Shown here piece by piece: positions 12,574-54,287 of a stretch of 58,626 nt of DNA. The position numbers were made by a program, and so were the translations under genes. The DNA comes from an uncultured Pelagibacteraceae bacterium (lineage in GTDB: Bacteria; Pseudomonadota; Alphaproteobacteria; Pelagibacterales; Pelagibacteraceae). Within the stretch, counting starts at the first letter, position 1, and each line of letters begins with the position of its first letter. The notes under the pieces were generated by a model. It was not told the DNA's origin, did no database searches, and saw only the letters and a list, made by a program, of their open reading frames with translations. The stretch spans positions 1-58,626 of the forward strand of contig CACGBI010000005.1 of assembly GCA_902571235.1 (NCBI GenBank), given 5' to 3'.

Positions 12574-13698
12574 ATGAATAATGAGAATAATATAAAAACT
12601 TTAATTATTAAAAAACCATTAAAACTAGATTGTGGAAAAGTTATAAAAGACTTTCCAATTGCATTCGAAACATATGGGTCACTTAACTCTAATAAAGACA
12701 ACGCAATATTAGTTTTTCATGCTTTAACAGGAGATCAGTTTGTAACTGGTATCAATCCTATAACTAAAAAAGATGGTTGGTGGAGTTACGCAGTAGGACC
12801 AGATAAAGCTATAGATACTAATAAATATTTCGTTATTTGTTCGAATGTACTTGGAGGATGTATGGGTTCATATGGACCAAGTCATAAGGATCCTGATAAT
12901 CAAAATATATTTGGAACAAATTTCCCAGTTATCACTATTAATGACATGGTAAATGCTCAATATAATTTACTTGAACATTTTGGTATTGATAAACTATTTT
13001 CTATTGCTGGTGGATCTATGGGTGGAATGCAAGTTCTTCAGTTCATTAGCAACTTTCCTGAAAAATCAAAAACAGTCATACCCATTGCAACTACCTCAAG
13101 CCACTCAGCACAAAATATTGCTTTTAATGAATTAGGTAGACAAGCAATAACTGCAGATAGTGAATGGAAAGATGGGAATTATAATAAGAATAATACAAGC
13201 CCTGGAAAGGGATTAGCAGTAGCTAGAATGGCTGCTCATATAACCTATTTATCAAAAAAAGGTTTACAAGAGAAATTTGGAAGAAAACTACAAGAAAGAG
13301 AAGATCTTAAATTCGGTTTTGATGCAGATTTTCAAATAGAAAGCTATTTAAGATATCAAGGGTCAGTTTTTGTAGATAGATTTGATGCGAATAGTTATCT
13401 TTATATAACCAGAGCAATGGATTATTTTGATTTAGCAAAACAATTTAAAGATAATCTTTCAGATGCATTTATAAATACAAAAGCTAAATTTTTTATAATC
13501 TCATTTACTTCAGATTGGCTATATCCTACACAAGAAAATAAAGATATTGTAATTGCTTTAAATTCAATTGGAGCTGATGTCGGATTTGTTGAAATAAAAT
13601 CAGATAAAGGACATGATTCTTTCCTACTAGATGTACCAGATTTTTTAAATGCTCTTAAAAACTTTTTAGATAAATCATATATAGAAAATAAAATATGA
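12574..13698 (+). CDS. metX: homoserine O-acyltransferase MetX
   Basis: Activates homoserine by acetylation or succinylation, the first committed step to methionine. The 374-aa alpha/beta hydrolase-fold protein has the triad S148 (AGGSMGGMQ), D314 (FTSDWLYP) and H347 (KGHDSFLLD), plus the family motif NVLGGCMGSYGPS (91-103). AAAGG at 12563-12567 is 6 nt before the ATG. The SAM-II riboswitch upstream indicates repression by S-adenosylmethionine. metW follows with a 4-nt overlap; MetX partnered by MetW is usual in Proteobacteria. Acetyl versus succinyl specificity cannot be decided by eye. Confidence 0.94.
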   Translation: MNNENNIKTLIIKKPLKLDCGKVIKDFPIAFETYGSLNSNKDNAILVFHALTGDQFVTGINPITKKDGWWSYAVGPDKAIDTNKYFVICSNVLGGCMGSYGPSHKDPDNQNIFGTNFPVITINDMVNAQYNLLEHFGIDKLFSIAGGSMGGMQVLQFISNFPEKSKTVIPIATTSSHSAQNIAFNELGRQAITADSEWKDGNYNKNNTSPGKGLAVARMAAHITYLSKKGLQEKFGRKLQEREDLKFGFDADFQIESYLRYQGSVFVDRFDANSYLYITRAMDYFDLAKQFKDNLSDAFINTKAKFFIISFTSDWLYPTQENKDIVIALNSIGADVGFVEIKSDKGHDSFLLDVPDFLNALKNFLDKSYIENKI

Positions 13699-14291
13699 AG
13701 AATGAGTTTAAAGTAATCGCAGATTTAATCGAAAAAGATAAAAAAGTATTAGATGTAGGATGTGCTGATGGAACCCTAATGAAATTTTTAAAAGAAAATA
13801 AAAATGCAAATATTAGAGGACTAGAAATATCAAAAGAAAAAGTGCAAGAATGTATTGCAAAAGGTTTAACGGTTATTGAAGGAAATGCTGAAAAAGACTT
13901 AAAACAATTCCCAGACAAATCATTTGATTATGTTGTTTTAAGCCAAACACTTCAGGCTTTTTTAAATCCTGAGTTAGTCTTAGATGAACTATTAAGAGTT
14001 GGAAAAAAAGCAATAGTTACCATTCCTAATTTTGGATACTGGAAAGTAAGATTTCACTTATTGTTTAAAGGTACAATGCCAATTACAAAAACTTTACCAG
14101 ATGAGTGGTATAATACGCCTAATTTACACATGTGTACTATCAAAGACTTTTTTAATTTTGTTAAAATTAAAGATATAAAAATTTTTAAATCATTAGCACT
14201 GAATAATTTTAATACTTCGTTGATAAATAATAGTAACTTGAGAATTAAAAATCTATTTGCAGATCTAGGTATATTTTTAATAGAAAAATAA
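13695..14291 (+). CDS. metW: methionine biosynthesis protein MetW
   Basis: A 198-aa class I methyltransferase-fold protein with the SAM-binding motif LDVGCADGTL (about 19-28), then SFDYVVLSQTLQA and RVGKKAIVTIPNFGYW, typical of MetW, which is needed together with MetX for homoserine acylation in several bacteria. The ATG overlaps the metX stop by 4 nt (ATGA), indicating translational coupling and shared control by the riboswitch. Its exact biochemical activity in the family is not well established. Confidence 0.92.
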   Translation: MKNEFKVIADLIEKDKKVLDVGCADGTLMKFLKENKNANIRGLEISKEKVQECIAKGLTVIEGNAEKDLKQFPDKSFDYVVLSQTLQAFLNPELVLDELLRVGKKAIVTIPNFGYWKVRFHLLFKGTMPITKTLPDEWYNTPNLHMCTIKDFFNFVKIKDIKIFKSLALNNFNTSLINNSNLRIKNLFADLGIFLIEK

Positions 14292-43203: not shown

Positions 43204-44697
43204 TTATTTCATTGTTGGCATTACGAACTCAGCGTTTGATCTAATTCCAGAAGGCCATCTTGAAGTTATTGTTTTAAGTTTTGTATAAAATTTTATTCCT
43301 TCCATACCATGCATTGCACTGTCTCCAAATAGTGATCTTTTCCAACCACCAAAACTATGAAAAGCCATTGGAACTGGAATAGGAACGTTAATACCAACCA
43401 TTCCAACTTGTATCTTGCTCGAAAAGGTTCTTCCTGCATCACCATCTCTGGTATAAATACTAACCCCGTTTCCATATTCATGATCATTAATAAGTTTTGT
43501 AGCTTCTTCAAAATTTTTTACTCTTATTACAGATAAAACTGGTCCAAATATTTCTTCTTTGTATATTCTCATTTCTTTCTTTACATGATCAAACAAACAT
43601 CCTCCGATATAGAAACCCTTCTCATAACCCTGTAATTTTAAATTTCTACCATCCACAACTAACTTGGCACCTTCTTTTACGCCTAAATCAACATATCCTT
43701 TTACTTTTTCTAGATGCTCTTTAGTAACCAAAGGTCCCATCTCAGAACTTTTATCCATTCCAGGACCAACTTTTAAAACCTCTACTTTTTTTGATAATCT
43801 TGATACCAATTCATCTCCTATATCTCCAACAGCTACCGCAACTGATTGAGCCATACATCTTTCACCCGCAGAACCATAAGCGGCCCCCATTAAGCCATTT
43901 ACTGCTCCATCTAAGTCACAATCTGGCATGACAACTAAATGATTTTTTGCACCTCCTAAAGCCTGAACTCTTTTTTCATTTTTTGCAGAATTCTCATAAA
44001 TATATTTTGCTATTGGTGTTGATCCTACAAAACTTACTGCCTTGATATCTTTATTCGTTAAGATCCCATCTACAACTTCTTTATCTCCATTGACAACATT
44101 AAAAACTCCATCCGGAAGACCAGCTTCTTTTAATAATTCTGCCAATTTAATTGCACAAGATGGATCTTTTTCAGATGGTTTTAATATAAAAGTATTTCCA
44201 CACGCAATTGCTATAGGAAACATCCACATTGGCACCATCGCAGGAAAGTTGAAAGGTGTTATACCTGCCACAACTCCTAATGGTTGACGCATTGACCAGC
44301 TATCAACATTTGTTCCAACATTTTCTGAAAATTCACCTTTAAGTAAATTAGGTATTCCGCATGCAAATTCAACAACTTCCAAACCTCTTGTTAAAGATCC
44401 CTTAGCATCTTCATAAACTTTTCCATGTTCAGAGACTATTAATTTAGTAAGTTCATCTGAATTTTTCTCTATTAATTCTTTGAATTTAAACATAACTCTA
44501 GCTCTTACAAGTGATGGTTTTAATGACCATTCTTCAAAAGCTTTTTGTGCAACTTTGACTGCTTGATCTAGATCTAATTTAGAAGCTAACCTTACTTCTT
44601 TTTCTTGTTCACCTGTCGCTGGGTTAAAAACCTTACCTTTTTTATCTGAATTACCGGGGATTATTTTTCCGCCTACAAAATGTTCAATTAATTTCAT
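43204..44697 (-). CDS. mmsA: (methyl)malonate-semialdehyde dehydrogenase (CoA-acylating)
   Basis: A 497-aa aldehyde dehydrogenase of the MmsA family, which converts methylmalonate semialdehyde to propionyl-CoA or malonate semialdehyde to acetyl-CoA. Features are the N-terminal EHFVGGK, GVVAGITPFNFPAMVPMWM, FVGSTPIA, LGGAKNH (lacking the general-base Glu of ordinary aldehyde dehydrogenases, as expected for MmsA) and catalytic C281 in GERCMAQS. It sits between sdhB and mdh. Besides valine and inositol degradation it could finish the 3-hydroxypropionate branch of DMSP-derived acrylate use, in line with the dmd genes nearby. Confidence 0.9.
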   Translation of the reverse strand: MKLIEHFVGGKIIPGNSDKKGKVFNPATGEQEKEVRLASKLDLDQAVKVAQKAFEEWSLKPSLVRARVMFKFKELIEKNSDELTKLIVSEHGKVYEDAKGSLTRGLEVVEFACGIPNLLKGEFSENVGTNVDSWSMRQPLGVVAGITPFNFPAMVPMWMFPIAIACGNTFILKPSEKDPSCAIKLAELLKEAGLPDGVFNVVNGDKEVVDGILTNKDIKAVSFVGSTPIAKYIYENSAKNEKRVQALGGAKNHLVVMPDCDLDGAVNGLMGAAYGSAGERCMAQSVAVAVGDIGDELVSRLSKKVEVLKVGPGMDKSSEMGPLVTKEHLEKVKGYVDLGVKEGAKLVVDGRNLKLQGYEKGFYIGGCLFDHVKKEMRIYKEEIFGPVLSVIRVKNFEEATKLINDHEYGNGVSIYTRDGDAGRTFSSKIQVGMVGINVPIPVPMAFHSFGGWKRSLFGDSAMHGMEGIKFYTKLKTITSRWPSGIRSNAEFVMPTMK

Positions 44698-49014: not shown

Positions 49015-50124
49015 CTAGATGAAAGGTAATTCGCAAACTTTAAGAGCTATATTTTTTCCTTCAATTTCAATCTTACCAGTCTCTGACACTTTGCAAAAAG
49101 GCTCATTTATCATTGCAATTCCTATCACTTTTTTAAAATGAGGTGAATAGCATGCAGATCTAAGATCTCCTATTAAGTTTCCATCATTATTCATAATATT
49201 GACTGAACCTGTTAAACTAATTTTATTTGTTTCAACTTGAACTCCCATTAGTTTTCTTTTAATTCCATCAGATTTAATCTTTTTTAGCTTATCTTTACCC
49301 AAAAAAACTACCTCTGAATCTAAATTAACATATTTTTCAAAACCACATTCAAAAGGGTTGTCTTGATTGTCAAAATCATTTCCATAAGAAAGAAGACCAC
49401 TTTCAATTCTTTCAATAAGATTTGGGCAGCCAGGTTTTACATTAAATTCTGTACCTATTTCAAAAAGATGATCGTATAAATCTTGGCCTGACGATGTATT
49501 TTCAACATAAACTTCATAACCACCTTGTTTTGACCAACCCGATCTGGCAATCAAATGTTTTGTTCCTTTATAATCAAAGTAATCAAATCCAAAAAACTTT
49601 AATTCAGTAATTGCTTTACCAAAAACTTTTTCCATCAATCCAAAAGATTTAGGACCTTGTATTGCTATTATATCTACTTTTGGTTCTAAAATTTTTACTT
49701 CAAATTTATTTCCTGATGCAAGTCCTTTTGCAAAAAAGATAACATCAGAATCTGCAATAGAAATCCACCACTTATCTTCTGATAATTTAAGTATAACTGG
49801 ATCATTAATTAAATTTCCATTATCATCAATAATAGGACAATAGTAACATCTGCCAATTTTAGATTTTGACAAATCTCTACAAGTCATTAGCTGAACTAGT
49901 CTAGCAGAATCTTTTCCTGAAATTTCAACTTGTCTTTCTGCAGCAACATCCCAAACCTGAACATCTTTTTTTAAGTGATGATATGAGTCCTCAATTGATC
50001 CAAAAGCCGCTGGCAATAACATATGATTATAAACTGTGTAAGTTGTTACGCCTTGTTTTTCTATTCTTGAAGTGTAGGGAGTACTCCTTAATCTTCTAGA
50101 TTTTGCTATTGAATAGTTTTTCAT
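49015..50124 (-). CDS. dmdA: dimethylsulfoniopropionate demethylase DmdA
   Basis: Transfers a methyl group from DMSP to tetrahydrofolate, giving 3-methylmercaptopropionate. The 369-aa GcvT/T-protein-fold sequence agrees closely with what I recall of the SAR11 enzyme: [17 protein letters not shown] at the start, [67 protein letters not shown] and [19 protein letters not shown]. It is distinct from true GcvT and lies with dmdB- and dmdC-type genes, which supports the function strongly. The start overlaps the hydrolase stop as ATGA. Confidence 0.95.
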
Positions 50125-50897
50125 TTAATTAAAAATTCCAAAATCTTCTCTCGCATTTCAAAAGCTTTTTCAATCATAATCATATGTCCTGAACCACTAA
50201 TTACATGAGTGATTGAATTTTTGACTAAATTTGCAAATTTTTTTCCATTTTCTAAATTAGCCATCTTGTCGAGTTCTCCCAATATAAACATAGTTGGACA
50301 GTTTATAGCTTTTGCTGCTTCAGAACCGTTTTGATAATTATTGCATGCAATAAGATCAATAGCTAAAATTTCACTAATATCTCTTGGTGACTGGATAATT
50401 TTTTCTACTGGATTTCCACCGATAAATTTTTTTGAACCTTCATAGCCCCATTTCATCATTAATTTAACTGCATCAGAATCTCCATCTGACGCTAAGTCAA
50501 TAAGATCTTTATTAACAGGCATTCGATAAGAACCCCCAACAAAAACTATTTTTTTTAATCTACTTTTATATTTAAATGAATATTCAAGTGCCTCTAGGCA
50601 ACCTTGTGAATGACCAATAAGAATTATATTTTTTAAATTTAATTCTGCGAAAACTTTTTCTAACCAATCTGCAATTTTTTCAATACTATCCAAACAAGGA
50701 CCTTCAGAATTTCCATGTCCAGGTAGATCAATTGATAAAACATTGAAATTTTTATTTGAAAAAAATTGTTCTGTAAGAGACCAGACAATATGCGATAAGC
50801 CACTTCCATGCAAAAATACTATGGTATCTTTAGAATTTTCTATGCTTTGCCCAGCATCAGAAGCATGAACACTTTTATTTTGTATGGTTATTATCAA
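50121..50897 (-). CDS. alpha/beta hydrolase of the dmd cluster, function unknown
   Basis: A 258-aa alpha/beta-hydrolase-fold protein with an intact triad: nucleophile S97 in [11 protein letters not shown]210 in GELDKMAN and H238 in GSGHMIMIE; the oxyanion loop FLHGSGLSH is at 28-36. It lies between dmdB and dmdA, 8 nt after dmdB and overlapping dmdA by 4 nt, so it is translated with the DMSP pathway. No such enzyme belongs to the described DmdA-B-C-D route. It could hydrolyse a CoA thioester or an ester in that route; this is inference. No signal peptide, so cytoplasmic. Confidence 0.8.
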
Positions 50898-50905
50898 TCA
50901 ATTAC

Positions 50906-52522
50906 CTAAAATTTTTTTCTAAGTTCAAATTTTTGAATTTTACCTGTAGAAGTTTTTGGTAATTCACAGAAAACAACCTGTTTAGGAACCTTAAAACCAG
51001 CCAAAGTTTCTTTACAAAATGTTATTAATTCTTTCTCTGTGGTAGGTTTGTCTTTAACCATTTCTATAAATGCACAAGGAACTTCTCCCCACTTTTCATC
51101 AGGTTTAGCTACTACAGCAGCAATTGATACTGAGGGATGTTTGCTTAAAGTGTTTTCTATTTCAATTGATGAAATATTTTCTCCACCAGAAATAATTATA
51201 TCTTTTGATCTATCTTGTATTTTAACATATCCATCTGGATGCATTACCGCTAGGTCTCCAGAATGAAACCATCCACCAGCCATAGCCTTGTCAGTTGCAG
51301 CCTTATCTTTAAAATAACCTTTCATTACCACGTTTCCTCTCAACATAATTTCACCAATTGTTTTGCCATCTTTTGGAACTTCTTTCATGGTTTCGGGATC
51401 CATAATTGCTGCTCCTTCAAGGTTGGGATATCGAACGCCTTGTCTTGCTTTAATTTCATTTTGCTTCTCTTCGTCAAATTCATTCCAATCATCATTCCAA
51501 GCACACTGTGTGACATGACCATACGTTTCTGTTAGGCCATAAACATGCATCACTTCAAAACCAAGTTCTTTCATTTTTTTGAAAATTATACTTGGAGGTG
51601 GAGCGCCTGCAGTAAGCACATGAACTTTATTTTTTATTTTTTTTCGGTCACTTTCAGGAGCACCTGTTATCATATTTAATACTATTGGAGCACCTCCAAA
51701 ATGAGTAACATCATATTTATCAATTAACTCAAAAATTTTTTTAACATCTATGTTTCGTAAACAAATAGTCCTTCCATTTAACATTGGAACTGTCCATGGG
51801 TAACACCAACCATTACAGTGGAACATTGGAACAACTGTTAAAAAATTTAGTCTACTAGGCATATTCCAAGCAACTGCACTTCCAGTTGACATTAGATATG
51901 AGCCTCTATGATGATAAACAACGCCTTTAGGATTTCCAGTTGTGCCTGAAGTATAACTTAAGGATATAGCTTGCCACTCATCTTCTGGCATTTTCCAAAC
52001 ATAATTATCATCACCAGTATTAAGAAATTTTTCATATTCTAAATCACCAATTTTTTCTAATTTTGACTGATCTGCAAATTTATCATGAATATCAATTACA
52101 ATAATTTTTTTATCTAATTTACTTAAAGCCTTTTTTACTTCGATATGAAGTTGTCTATCTACTACTAATACTTTTGCATCACTATGATTTAAAATATATG
52201 AGATAGTATTAGCGTCTAATCTAATATTAATTGTATTTAAAACAGCACCAGTCATTGGAACTGAATAGTGAGCCTCAAAAATTTCTGGAGTGTTAAAAGC
52301 TAAAAATGAAACAGTGTCTCCTTTTTTGATGCCAATTTTTTCTAGTGCACTAGCAAATTTGATAGTTCTTTTGTAAACTTCACTCCAAGTATATTTTCTA
52401 TCCTCATAAACTATTGCCTCATAATTTGGGTAAACTTCTTTTACTCTTTCTAAAAAAGATAAAGGTGTTAAAGGAACATAATTTGCAGCATTTTTATCCA
52501 AATTTGTATCGTAATGACTCAT
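50906..52522 (-). CDS. dmdB: methylmercaptopropionate-CoA ligase-like acyl-CoA synthetase
   Basis: An adenylate-forming acyl-CoA synthetase of 538 aa that in the DMSP pathway activates 3-methylmercaptopropionate. Visible are the P-loop SYTSGTTGNPKG, the HVYGLTETYG motif, GWFHSGDLA, DRSKDIIISGGENIS and the C-terminal catalytic lysine in STGKIQKFELR. Medium-chain acyl-CoA ligases share these motifs, so the name rests on the position between dmdC and dmdA. Confidence 0.85.
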   Translation of the reverse strand: MSHYDTNLDKNAANYVPLTPLSFLERVKEVYPNYEAIVYEDRKYTWSEVYKRTIKFASALEKIGIKKGDTVSFLAFNTPEIFEAHYSVPMTGAVLNTINIRLDANTISYILNHSDAKVLVVDRQLHIEVKKALSKLDKKIIVIDIHDKFADQSKLEKIGDLEYEKFLNTGDDNYVWKMPEDEWQAISLSYTSGTTGNPKGVVYHHRGSYLMSTGSAVAWNMPSRLNFLTVVPMFHCNGWCYPWTVPMLNGRTICLRNIDVKKIFELIDKYDVTHFGGAPIVLNMITGAPESDRKKIKNKVHVLTAGAPPPSIIFKKMKELGFEVMHVYGLTETYGHVTQCAWNDDWNEFDEEKQNEIKARQGVRYPNLEGAAIMDPETMKEVPKDGKTIGEIMLRGNVVMKGYFKDKAATDKAMAGGWFHSGDLAVMHPDGYVKIQDRSKDIIISGGENISSIEIENTLSKHPSVSIAAVVAKPDEKWGEVPCAFIEMVKDKPTTEKELITFCKETLAGFKVPKQVVFCELPKTSTGKIQKFELRKKF

Positions 52523-52523
52523 T

Positions 52524-54287
52524 TTAGTTAAACTTAAAATTCATTATATTCGAGCTTCCAGAAATAGCTGATTTATAATGTTGCTCAGCTCTAGGTAGAA
52601 CTTTGTCAAAATAAAATTTTGCAGTGTTTATCTTATCATCATAAAAATTTTTGTTTTCATTGTAATCTTTAAAACTTACACCCAGAATCTTTATCCAAGC
52701 ATAAGCAACCGAAACAAAACCAAGCGTTTTTAGATAATCATTCGCAGCAGCACTAACATCATCTTTATCAGTTTTCGTTTTTTGATTTACCCATTCACTA
52801 AACTTAGTCAAAATATCCAAATAATACTTAAATTCTTTCGTGAATGGCCTTATATTATCGTTGTCTAAATCAGTTTCAGATTTAATTAAATTTATAAATT
52901 TATCAATTATATACCCATTTTTATTAGATAATTTTCTAAAAACCAAATCTGCTGCTTGTACTGAATTTGTGCCTTCGTATATTGGTGTTATTCTATTATC
53001 TCTATATAACTGTTCAATTCCTTGATCTTTTGTATAACCATAACCTCCATGGATTTGCATAGCATCATTTGTAATTTCCATACCTAAGTCTGTAAATAAT
53101 GCTTTTACGACCGGCGTCATTAACGAAACATAATCCGATGCCTCCTGGCGAACTTTATCATCTGGATGGTTAAGACTAACCTCAGTTTGTTGAGATAACC
53201 AAAAACATAATGCTCTCTCACCTTCTATTATTGATTTCATATTTAATAATGATCTTCTTATGTCTGCATGCTCAATAATAAAATCAGCACCATTAGTTGA
53301 TTTAGTTTTATTAGTTTTACCTTGTTTTCTCTCTTTTGCATAAGCAAGTGAGTTTTGATACGCAATTTCTGAAATTCCTAAACCCTGAATACCAACAACT
53401 ATTCTTTCAAGATTCATCATGGTAAACATTGCATTTAAACCCTTATCTTTTTTTCCAATCATATAACCAGTAGCTTCATCAAAATTTAATACACATGTAG
53501 CAGAGCCCTTAATGCCCATTTTGCTCTCAATAGATCCTGTTGAGATTCCATTTCTTGGACCAATACTTCCATCTTCATTAACTGAAAATTTAGGAACTAA
53601 AAATAAACTTATACCTTTTGTGCCTGATGGAGAGTCAGTTGCTCTAGCAATCACTAAATGAATAATATTTTCTGTTAAATCATGATCCCCTGAAGTAATA
53701 AATATTTTCTGACCAGTTATTTTATATGTTCCATTATCTTGTTTTGTCGCTTTTGTTTTTAAAAGTCCTAAATCTGTCCCACAAACTGGTTCAGTTAAAC
53801 ACATAGTGCCACTCCATTTACCTTCAACTATTTTCGGTAAATATTTATTTTTTATTTCTTCTGATGCGTGATGATTTATACAGTTATATGCACCAATACT
53901 AAGTTCACTATAAAGTTTAAATGACAAACTAGCAGCTGATAACATCTCATCAAAAAATGCACTAACTGTTTTGGGCATGCCTTGACCACCATACTTTGGA
54001 TCACATGATAAGGAAGTCCATCCATCTTCAATATATTTTCTATATGCTTCTTTGTATCCTGGAGGTGTTCTTACTACTCCATTTTCCAAAACTGCAGGAT
54101 TTTCATCACCAGCTTTTGCAAGTGGTAAAATTAAATTTTGATTAATTTTTGCAGCCTCATCTAAAATATTTTTAACTAGATCTGAAGTAACCTCTTTATA
54201 TTTTTCTAATTCATTATAATTTTTATTGTCTCTTAATTTATCAAAGAGAAACATCATATCTTCTACTGGCGCGGTGTAGCTTGGCAT
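52524..54287 (-). CDS. dmdC: methylmercaptopropionyl-CoA dehydrogenase-like acyl-CoA dehydrogenase
   Basis: FAD-dependent acyl-CoA dehydrogenase of 587 aa, the longer DmdC-type form with an N-terminal segment MPSYTAPVEDMMF and a C-terminal helical extension. CLTEPVCGTDLG (163-174), KIFITSGDHDL, and catalytic E438 in ITPIYEGTNSVQA are present. In the DMSP route it makes methylthioacryloyl-CoA. It lies one base before dmdB on the same strand and 26 nt after leuB. Confidence 0.88.
   Translation of the reverse strand: MPSYTAPVEDMMFLFDKLRDNKNYNELEKYKEVTSDLVKNILDEAAKINQNLILPLAKAGDENPAVLENGVVRTPPGYKEAYRKYIEDGWTSLSCDPKYGGQGMPKTVSAFFDEMLSAASLSFKLYSELSIGAYNCINHHASEEIKNKYLPKIVEGKWSGTMCLTEPVCGTDLGLLKTKATKQDNGTYKITGQKIFITSGDHDLTENIIHLVIARATDSPSGTKGISLFLVPKFSVNEDGSIGPRNGISTGSIESKMGIKGSATCVLNFDEATGYMIGKKDKGLNAMFTMMNLERIVVGIQGLGISEIAYQNSLAYAKERKQGKTNKTKSTNGADFIIEHADIRRSLLNMKSIIEGERALCFWLSQQTEVSLNHPDDKVRQEASDYVSLMTPVVKALFTDLGMEITNDAMQIHGGYGYTKDQGIEQLYRDNRITPIYEGTNSVQAADLVFRKLSNKNGYIIDKFINLIKSETDLDNDNIRPFTKEFKYYLDILTKFSEWVNQKTKTDKDDVSAAANDYLKTLGFVSVAYAWIKILGVSFKDYNENKNFYDDKINTAKFYFDKVLPRAEQHYKSAISGSSNIMNFKFN

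Follow-up and report, generated by a model that had tools for sequence, protein, structure and literature searches.

The Pelagibacteraceae contig analysed here carries, inside its cluster of DMSP demethylation (dmd) genes, a gene for an alpha/beta hydrolase (hereafter HYD) that is a good candidate for a late step turning DMSP sulfur into methionine in SAR11, a very abundant DMSP user. Judging by its gene context, HYD very probably belongs to the branch that leads from 3-methylmercaptopropionate (MMPA) and methanethiol to methionine. A farther-reaching reading, to which we give a probability of about 0.4, is that HYD would be the unrecognised, non-crotonase half of a split DmdD, completing with a fadB-like hydratase the release of methanethiol from DMSP/MMPA in SAR11, and would form, with a dedicated metY, a widespread MMPA/methanethiol-to-methionine module that extends well beyond DMSP users, one gene being repeatedly shuttled between two sites of the same pathway. 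Directly visible are the HYD gene with its catalytic triad, its linkage to metY as well as to dmdB, dmdC and dmdA, and the fact that its two locations have been exchanged repeatedly. As to the reaction, we infer both the substrate and the division of labour: a fadB-like enzyme would hydrate, and HYD would cleave a CoA thioester in the last part of the branch, a proposal whose odds we put somewhat short of even.

HYD gene and protein

The window (the whole analysed stretch of 58,626 nucleotides) carries on its minus strand, in transcription order, a dmdC-type gene, a dmdB-type gene, HYD, dmdA, asd and the sdh genes (Table 1). The preliminary description had placed HYD in the dmd cluster, overlapping dmdA through ATGA and separated from dmdB by 8 nt; this was confirmed for an intact ORF of 258 amino acids, to which the missing strand (minus) can be added. 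The TTG start codon of HYD lies at 50897-50895 and its TGA stop codon at 50123-50121; the dmdA ATG occupies 50124-50122, and the dmdB stop codon TAG, at 50908-50906, lies 8 nt ahead of the HYD TTG.

Table 1. Features of the window that are discussed in the text
Feature	Coordinates	Strand	Basis
metX and metW (identities assumed by us)	12574..14291	+	
MmsA-type methylmalonate/malonate-semialdehyde dehydrogenase (identity assumed by us)	43204..44697	-	
dmdA, DMSP demethylase	49015..50124	-	NF009133, 573.8 bits (cut-off 410)
ATGA overlap of dmdA start codon and HYD stop codon	50121..50124	-	
HYD, alpha/beta hydrolase; TTG start; triad Ser97 (GHSQG)/Asp210/His238	50121..50897	-	258-aa ORF, Pfam, alignments, fold model
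dmdB-HYD gap, 8 nt; AGG ribosome-site-like bases over dmdB stop	50898..50905	-	
dmdB-type acyl-CoA (3-methylmercaptopropionate) ligase	50906..52522	-	model scores and synteny
dmdC-type acyl-CoA dehydrogenase	52524..54287	-	family models and synteny

The DmdB-type protein scored 863 bits with the PRK08162 acyl-CoA synthetase model (cut-off 677) and only 346 bits with the 3-(methylthio)propionyl-CoA ligase model (cut-off 822); for the acyl-CoA dehydrogenase in the dmdC position, no functional model scored above its cut-off. Rfam models gave nothing at gathering score on the window, and the promoter/terminator scan stayed at chance level. A tblastn search of the window with six queries (E<=0.01) gave no match for a crotonase, a 4HBT thioesterase, OsmC or metY, which bears out the earlier statement that a dmdD-type hydratase is missing there. 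Likewise, metY was not found among the matches listed (E<=1e-60) for this 72.55% complete genome, which weighs against the role proposed for HYD.

HYD is a member of the alpha/beta hydrolase superfamily (PF00561, 86.9 bits, cut-off 25.8; PF12697, 69.3 bits, cut-off 26.3). All nine of its Pfam matches are families of the alpha/beta-hydrolase type, and the crotonase family ECH_1 is absent from them; the possibility that HYD is a DmdD homologue was rejected on the grounds of its different fold. The complete S97-D210-H238 triad proposed from the sequence of the window was found to be invariant in 21 SAR11 copies and in 101/101 aligned members of the family. Among the curated functional models listed, none reached its cut-off. 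The best was MenH (TIGR03695, 75.5 bits, cut-off 208.55), and the models of PcaD (61 bits, cut-off 255.85) and RutD (TIGR03611, 42 bits, cut-off 238.5) also scored below theirs; none of the 25 best-scoring families out of 28 (E<=0.001) was a MetX model. In structure searches, the AlphaFold model of HYD (pLDDT 88.6, pTM 0.89) was about equally similar to many esterases, enol-lactonases and cofactor-free haloperoxidases, and esterases could not be told apart from enzymes of other activity in this way. Since so many types of enzyme match about equally, the structure is silent on the substrate.

The median dN/dS over eight pairs each was 0.08 for HYD and dmdA alike, with 0.05 for dmdB and 0.09 for asd. 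HYD thus evolves under purifying selection, as dmdA does, and a value of ca. 0.08 rules out a pseudogene. The HYD copy of one SAR11 genome (G168:C2:29729-30394) is broken by an in-frame TAA, which may reflect an assembly error or decay.

Distribution of HYD across SAR11

We drew 197 genomes of the family, many of them incomplete; dmdA scored above the cut-off (at least 410 bits) in 104 and HYD of at least 50% identity was present in 92. HYD abuts dmdA, lying directly before it on the same strand with a gap of -1 to 26 nt, in 76 of the 92 genomes. In eight others a 935-nt gap holds one gene between the two, and in another eight no dmdA was found on the HYD contig, although in one of these (G010) the contig stops inside a dmdA that directly follows HYD. 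Any form of HYD was detected in 99/104 dmdA-positive genomes versus 8/93 without such a dmdA, a comparison that ignores phylogeny. Five dmdA-positive genomes had no HYD. HYD is cut by the contig end in G141, and the contig of G025 ends 57 nt before the dmdA start; G178 has only the other type of dmdA, and G172 is an assembly in 70 contigs. The absence from G001, where dmdA is present, looks genuine. As to sensitivity, a profile search recovered HYD from all 80 loci examined, six of which had been missed when called ORFs were searched with blastp. Among named genomes, 525 confirmed HYD relatives were returned, the best 80 of which are all Pelagibacteraceae/Pelagibacterales records.

Mapping of 40 neighbourhoods revealed the dmdB-HYD-dmdA block in the same leuCDB...asd-sdh surroundings as in the window and also, in other genera, in different contexts, where the additions can be a fadB-like gene before dmdC, a 298-aa metF-like gene, or osmC with an enoyl-CoA hydratase gene between dmdB and HYD. 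The MmsA-type gene is present in most of the mapped SAR11 neighbourhoods that share the gene context of the window. With its order kept over several genera and its low dN/dS, HYD is in the dmd cluster by more than chance.

HYD also remains where dmdA is missing: it follows dmdB in L096 and L100, and L262 (genome G054) has a fadB-like-dmdC-dmdB-HYD run without dmdA. When three members of the genus of G054 were searched for dmdC, only G054 had it, and only G054 has HYD.

Two kinds of neighbouring genes were recorded in passing. Some SAR11 genera have the short metF-like gene located between dmdB and dmdC (L097:4708-5601, L100:5707-6600); it is of the methylenetetrahydrofolate reductase family, the L097 copy scoring below the curated cut-offs, and would fit with 5-methyl-THF, the product of DmdA. 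Near dmd genes, either after dmdA or in the space from dmdB to HYD, a pair recurs (L091:9325-10584, L088:5884-7145, L345:6730-8013) that consists of an osmC-like gene and, behind it, the gene for an enoyl-CoA hydratase of the PRK08139/ECHDC3 type, in which both crotonase glutamates are missing.

Exchange between the dmd site and the metY site

Nineteen dmdA-positive SAR11 genomes have no dmd-linked HYD, and 14 of them carry a metY+HYD pair instead. In all 14, HYD (39-41% identical) lies directly downstream of a distinct metY, which is 72-73% identical to an alphaproteobacterial metY and was not found in the other 183 SAR11 genomes among the matches listed. The dmd locus could be mapped in 13 of these 14 genomes, and its order is dmdC-dmdB-dmdA, with HYD missing. 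Exactly one HYD is present in each of the 107 SAR11 genomes that have it (E<=1e-30); none has both forms.

On the HYD tree, dmd-linked copies form one clade (98/100) that is nested, with moderate support (83/99; 82/94), among metY-linked copies. The HYD of the window thus falls, with less than full support, inside the metY-linked group, yet it is located in the dmd cluster. SAR11 metY-linked HYDs group with the copy of a non-SAR11 genome, G356 (99/100), which suggests that they were acquired by transfer. On a tree of seven flanking genes (of a quick kind, without bootstrap, 42 of 49 loci used), the state of the site changes five times, four of the changes being forced by supported branches. 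The dmd-linked and metY-linked forms thus substitute for one another, which is what would be expected of functional equivalents. In the alignment, dmd-linked HYDs carry Lys149, Lys156 and Lys166 around the region we take for the lid; at these sites the metY-linked copies of SAR11 show Asp, Ala and Met.

A broad-substrate esterase located beside these genes by chance would agree with the generic fold and with the weak matches to many esterases. This explanation is disfavoured, and we consider it highly improbable: it does not account for the exclusive swap between two linked locations, for the near-fixed pairing with metY described below or for the dN/dS of 0.08.

HYD next to metY outside SAR11

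A profile built from SAR11 HYDs detected homologues in 108 of 385 alphaproteobacterial genomes (E<=1e-25), three of which were SAR11. In 38 of 40 fetched non-SAR11 neighbourhoods one gene family adjoins HYD; its member in L217 is the O-acetylhomoserine sulfhydrylase MetY (NF006004, 659.5 bits, cut-off 636). Among the metY matches listed, this type of metY lies directly upstream of HYD in 103/106 non-SAR11 cases, with a median gap of 20 nt. Conversely, HYD is downstream of 103/106 of the listed metY genes that score at least 520 bits, the exceptions being one 427-nt gap and two contig edges; HYD was beside none of the 44 lower-scoring metY genes among the matches listed. A draw of 219 genomes from the phylum gave 15 HYD matches, five of them outside Alphaproteobacteria. 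In nine loci of this draw, including those five, metY is upstream on the same strand (9/9), one locus (L364, genome G554) being already among the 106 of the class draw; in L356 a 141-aa ORF separates the two genes. The usual home of HYD relatives in other Alphaproteobacteria is therefore downstream of metY, as its operon partner.

This linkage (103/106) rules out a DMSP-specific HYD and recasts two earlier proposals. A part in the DMSP pathway stands insofar as HYD is a conserved member of the SAR11 dmd cluster; specificity for that pathway does not. A DMSP-related ester, previously offered as a possible substrate, is no longer favoured: since HYD is found downstream of metY elsewhere, its natural substrate should be one common to methanethiol/methionine metabolism.

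Synteny with dmdA, which was expected of a pathway member, is a feature of SAR11, where HYD accompanies most dmdA loci. Outside SAR11 it is largely absent from them: of 22 genomes of the class draw with both genes, only two (G312, G416) have them adjacent, to which L361 of G757 can be added, and in the other 20 they lie at least 260 kb apart (seven genomes) or on different contigs (13). HYD is missing from 8 of 30 non-SAR11 dmdA-positive genomes, four of which have a dmdC homologue and four none (E<=1e-60). It thus follows that HYD is not universal among carriers of dmdA. The number 30 may be too high, since some NF009133 matches sit in another cluster.

In G407, G496, G573, G356 and the SAR11 copies of L079-L081, an NF009133 match above the cut-off follows a gene for a 580-aa protein, which we presume to be of the thiamine-diphosphate type. 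The curated model may over-call some DmdA-like genes. Further genes of this kind (G000:C7:1481-2560; L079-L081; L340-L342, L345) fall into two sets, one below the cut-off at ca. 351-405 bits and the other at 519-634 bits, located after the 580-aa protein and an ORF of 111-123 aa.

Within ca. 8 kb on each side of 65 non-SAR11 metY+HYD loci we found a dmdB-type gene in 11, a fadB-like gene in eight, a dmdC-type gene in three and dmdA in two. Most of these stretches have no dmd-type gene, and metY is thus the only constant partner there. A separate 4HBT thioesterase gene is present in 18/65; a second thioesterase would be redundant in these stretches, which counts against a thioesterase role of HYD. 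Nine non-SAR11 metY+HYD loci contained no SAM riboswitch by Rfam, and in nine SAR11 loci the only SAM-V was between the metY+HYD pair and the second metY gene of L261 (L261:8339-8404). An Rfam PYLIS_3 match (pyrrolysine insertion, mttB; 63 bits) was noted beside another metY+HYD locus (L216:11285-11384).

The scarcity of dmd-type genes at these loci is accommodated equally well by two other explanations, both of them unlikely in our view. In the first, HYD itself would act in the manner of RutD, adding water to free or CoA-bound 3-methylthioacrylate, with methanethiol and malonate semialdehyde as the products; RutD is said to treat 3-aminoacrylate in this way. Pairing with metY would be explained even without dmd genes, methanethiol being a metY substrate according to the accessible text of PMC5893883 and PMC4958253. 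RutD does appear in the structure search (Z 27.6) and matches weakly by profile; however, it is no closer to HYD than many esterases are, and the hydration can already be assigned to a fadB-like protein that has both crotonase glutamates. In the second, rather improbable, explanation, HYD would salvage or repair side products that arise around MetY and methanethiol, for example homocysteine thiolactone or an S-methyl thioester. The near-fixed metY pair (103/106) covers many genomes without a nearby dmd-type gene. However, four near-complete SAR11 genomes (G005, G009, G012, G022) have metY but no dmdA, dmdC or HYD, so that the type of metY present in them needs no HYD there, and in G046, G130 and G054 HYD remains beside dmdB. 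From the same four genomes it follows that HYD in SAR11 tracks the dmd branch and not metY as such.

It is very doubtful that HYD makes or protects the acyl-homoserine substrate of MetY as an acyltransferase or hydrolase like MetX. The operon with metY and the common fold of MetX would agree with such a role, but it leaves the place of HYD between dmdB and dmdA unexplained. Moreover, the window has its own metX-like and metW-like genes by our assignment; with a homoserine O-acetyltransferase already there, HYD need not be one, and it is 116 residues shorter than the metX-like product.

A possible fadB-like partner at the end of DMSP demethylation

Some loci bring both sets of genes together. 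In L361, dmdA (477 bits) is divergent to a metY-HYD-fadB-like-dmdB run, and in L217 (G416) and L218 (G312) dmdA (481 and 480 bits) is divergent to metY-HYD-fadB-like, without dmdB. The fadB-like gene was found in 8/8 dmd-bearing Pelagibacter genomes searched, including the present one (G000:C6), and in 0/4 near-complete SAR11 genomes without dmdA and dmdC. Its product combines a 3-hydroxyacyl-CoA dehydrogenase with a crotonase-like part that has Glu at both catalytic columns.

The 269-aa enoyl-CoA hydratase encoded beside HYD in some SAR11 genera was rejected as a stand-in for DmdD: it has Gln/Gly at both catalytic Glu columns, which we assigned by assumed crotonase numbering. This genome has a relative (G000:C7, 54% identity). 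DmdD was also sought beside dmdC in dmdA-positive, HYD-negative genomes, where L329 gave a glutathione S-transferase.

In the accessible parts of the respective papers, DmdD of Ruegeria is described as performing both hydration and thioester hydrolysis (PMC3660561), and Ca. P. ubique is reported to lack it, with alternate enzymes hypothesized (PMC5069961). This absence and the two glutamates of the fadB-like protein suggest that the latter hydrates and that HYD hydrolyses the thioester. DmdB would convert MMPA to MMPA-CoA, which DmdC would oxidize to methylthioacryloyl-CoA (MTA-CoA); the fadB-like enzyme would add water to MTA-CoA and methanethiol would leave. HYD may then cleave the hydrated product, malonate-semialdehyde-CoA, or MTA-CoA itself, through an acyl-enzyme at Ser97 assisted by His238/Asp210, giving CoA and a free C3 acid. 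MetY would join the methanethiol to O-acetylhomoserine to give methionine. The thioesterase role raised in the preliminary description remains our leading guess, and HYD and the fadB-like enzyme together would replace DmdD. The presumed MmsA-type dehydrogenase is a possible acceptor of the branch product. AcuH acts on MTA-CoA and is proposed as a stand-in where DmdD is missing, as stated in the accessible text of PMC5395565; it could close the gap with no need for HYD.

For the end of SAR11 demethylation without DmdD, there are now concrete candidates in HYD and the fadB-like enzyme. The two-gene metY+HYD operon occurs in more easily grown bacteria, and a route that keeps methanethiol for methionine is suggested.

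Comparison with known systems

A literature search for SAR11_0247, which we take to be the tag of the HTCC1062 copy of HYD, returned no mention, and dmdA was not found together with "alpha beta hydrolase", a query that spellings with a slash may escape. MetX, a homoserine O-acetyltransferase of the methionine pathway, shares the alpha/beta hydrolase fold with HYD. The metX-like protein of the window is distinct, having 374 aa versus 258 aa for HYD, and both are present. RutD, MenH, PcaD and BphD-type hydrolases have fold and catalytic triad in common with HYD and are among its nearest curated profiles and structures, although HYD falls far below the curated cut-offs of the first three. Titles and the beginnings of abstracts described no metY- or dmd-linked hydrolase, and the accessible portions of PMC4239095, PMC4958253 and PMC5893883 treat metY or methanethiol without a hydrolase partner.

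AcuH is a hydratase of the crotonase family and not a homologue of HYD, which could be the separate hydrolase working with such a hydratase. The closest functional parallel is DmdD of Ruegeria pomeroyi, which, like the role proposed for HYD, stands at the end of DMSP demethylation and releases CoA (and methanethiol). However, DmdD is a crotonase with Glu121/Glu141 (accessible text of PMC3660561), whereas HYD is a serine alpha/beta hydrolase of another fold.
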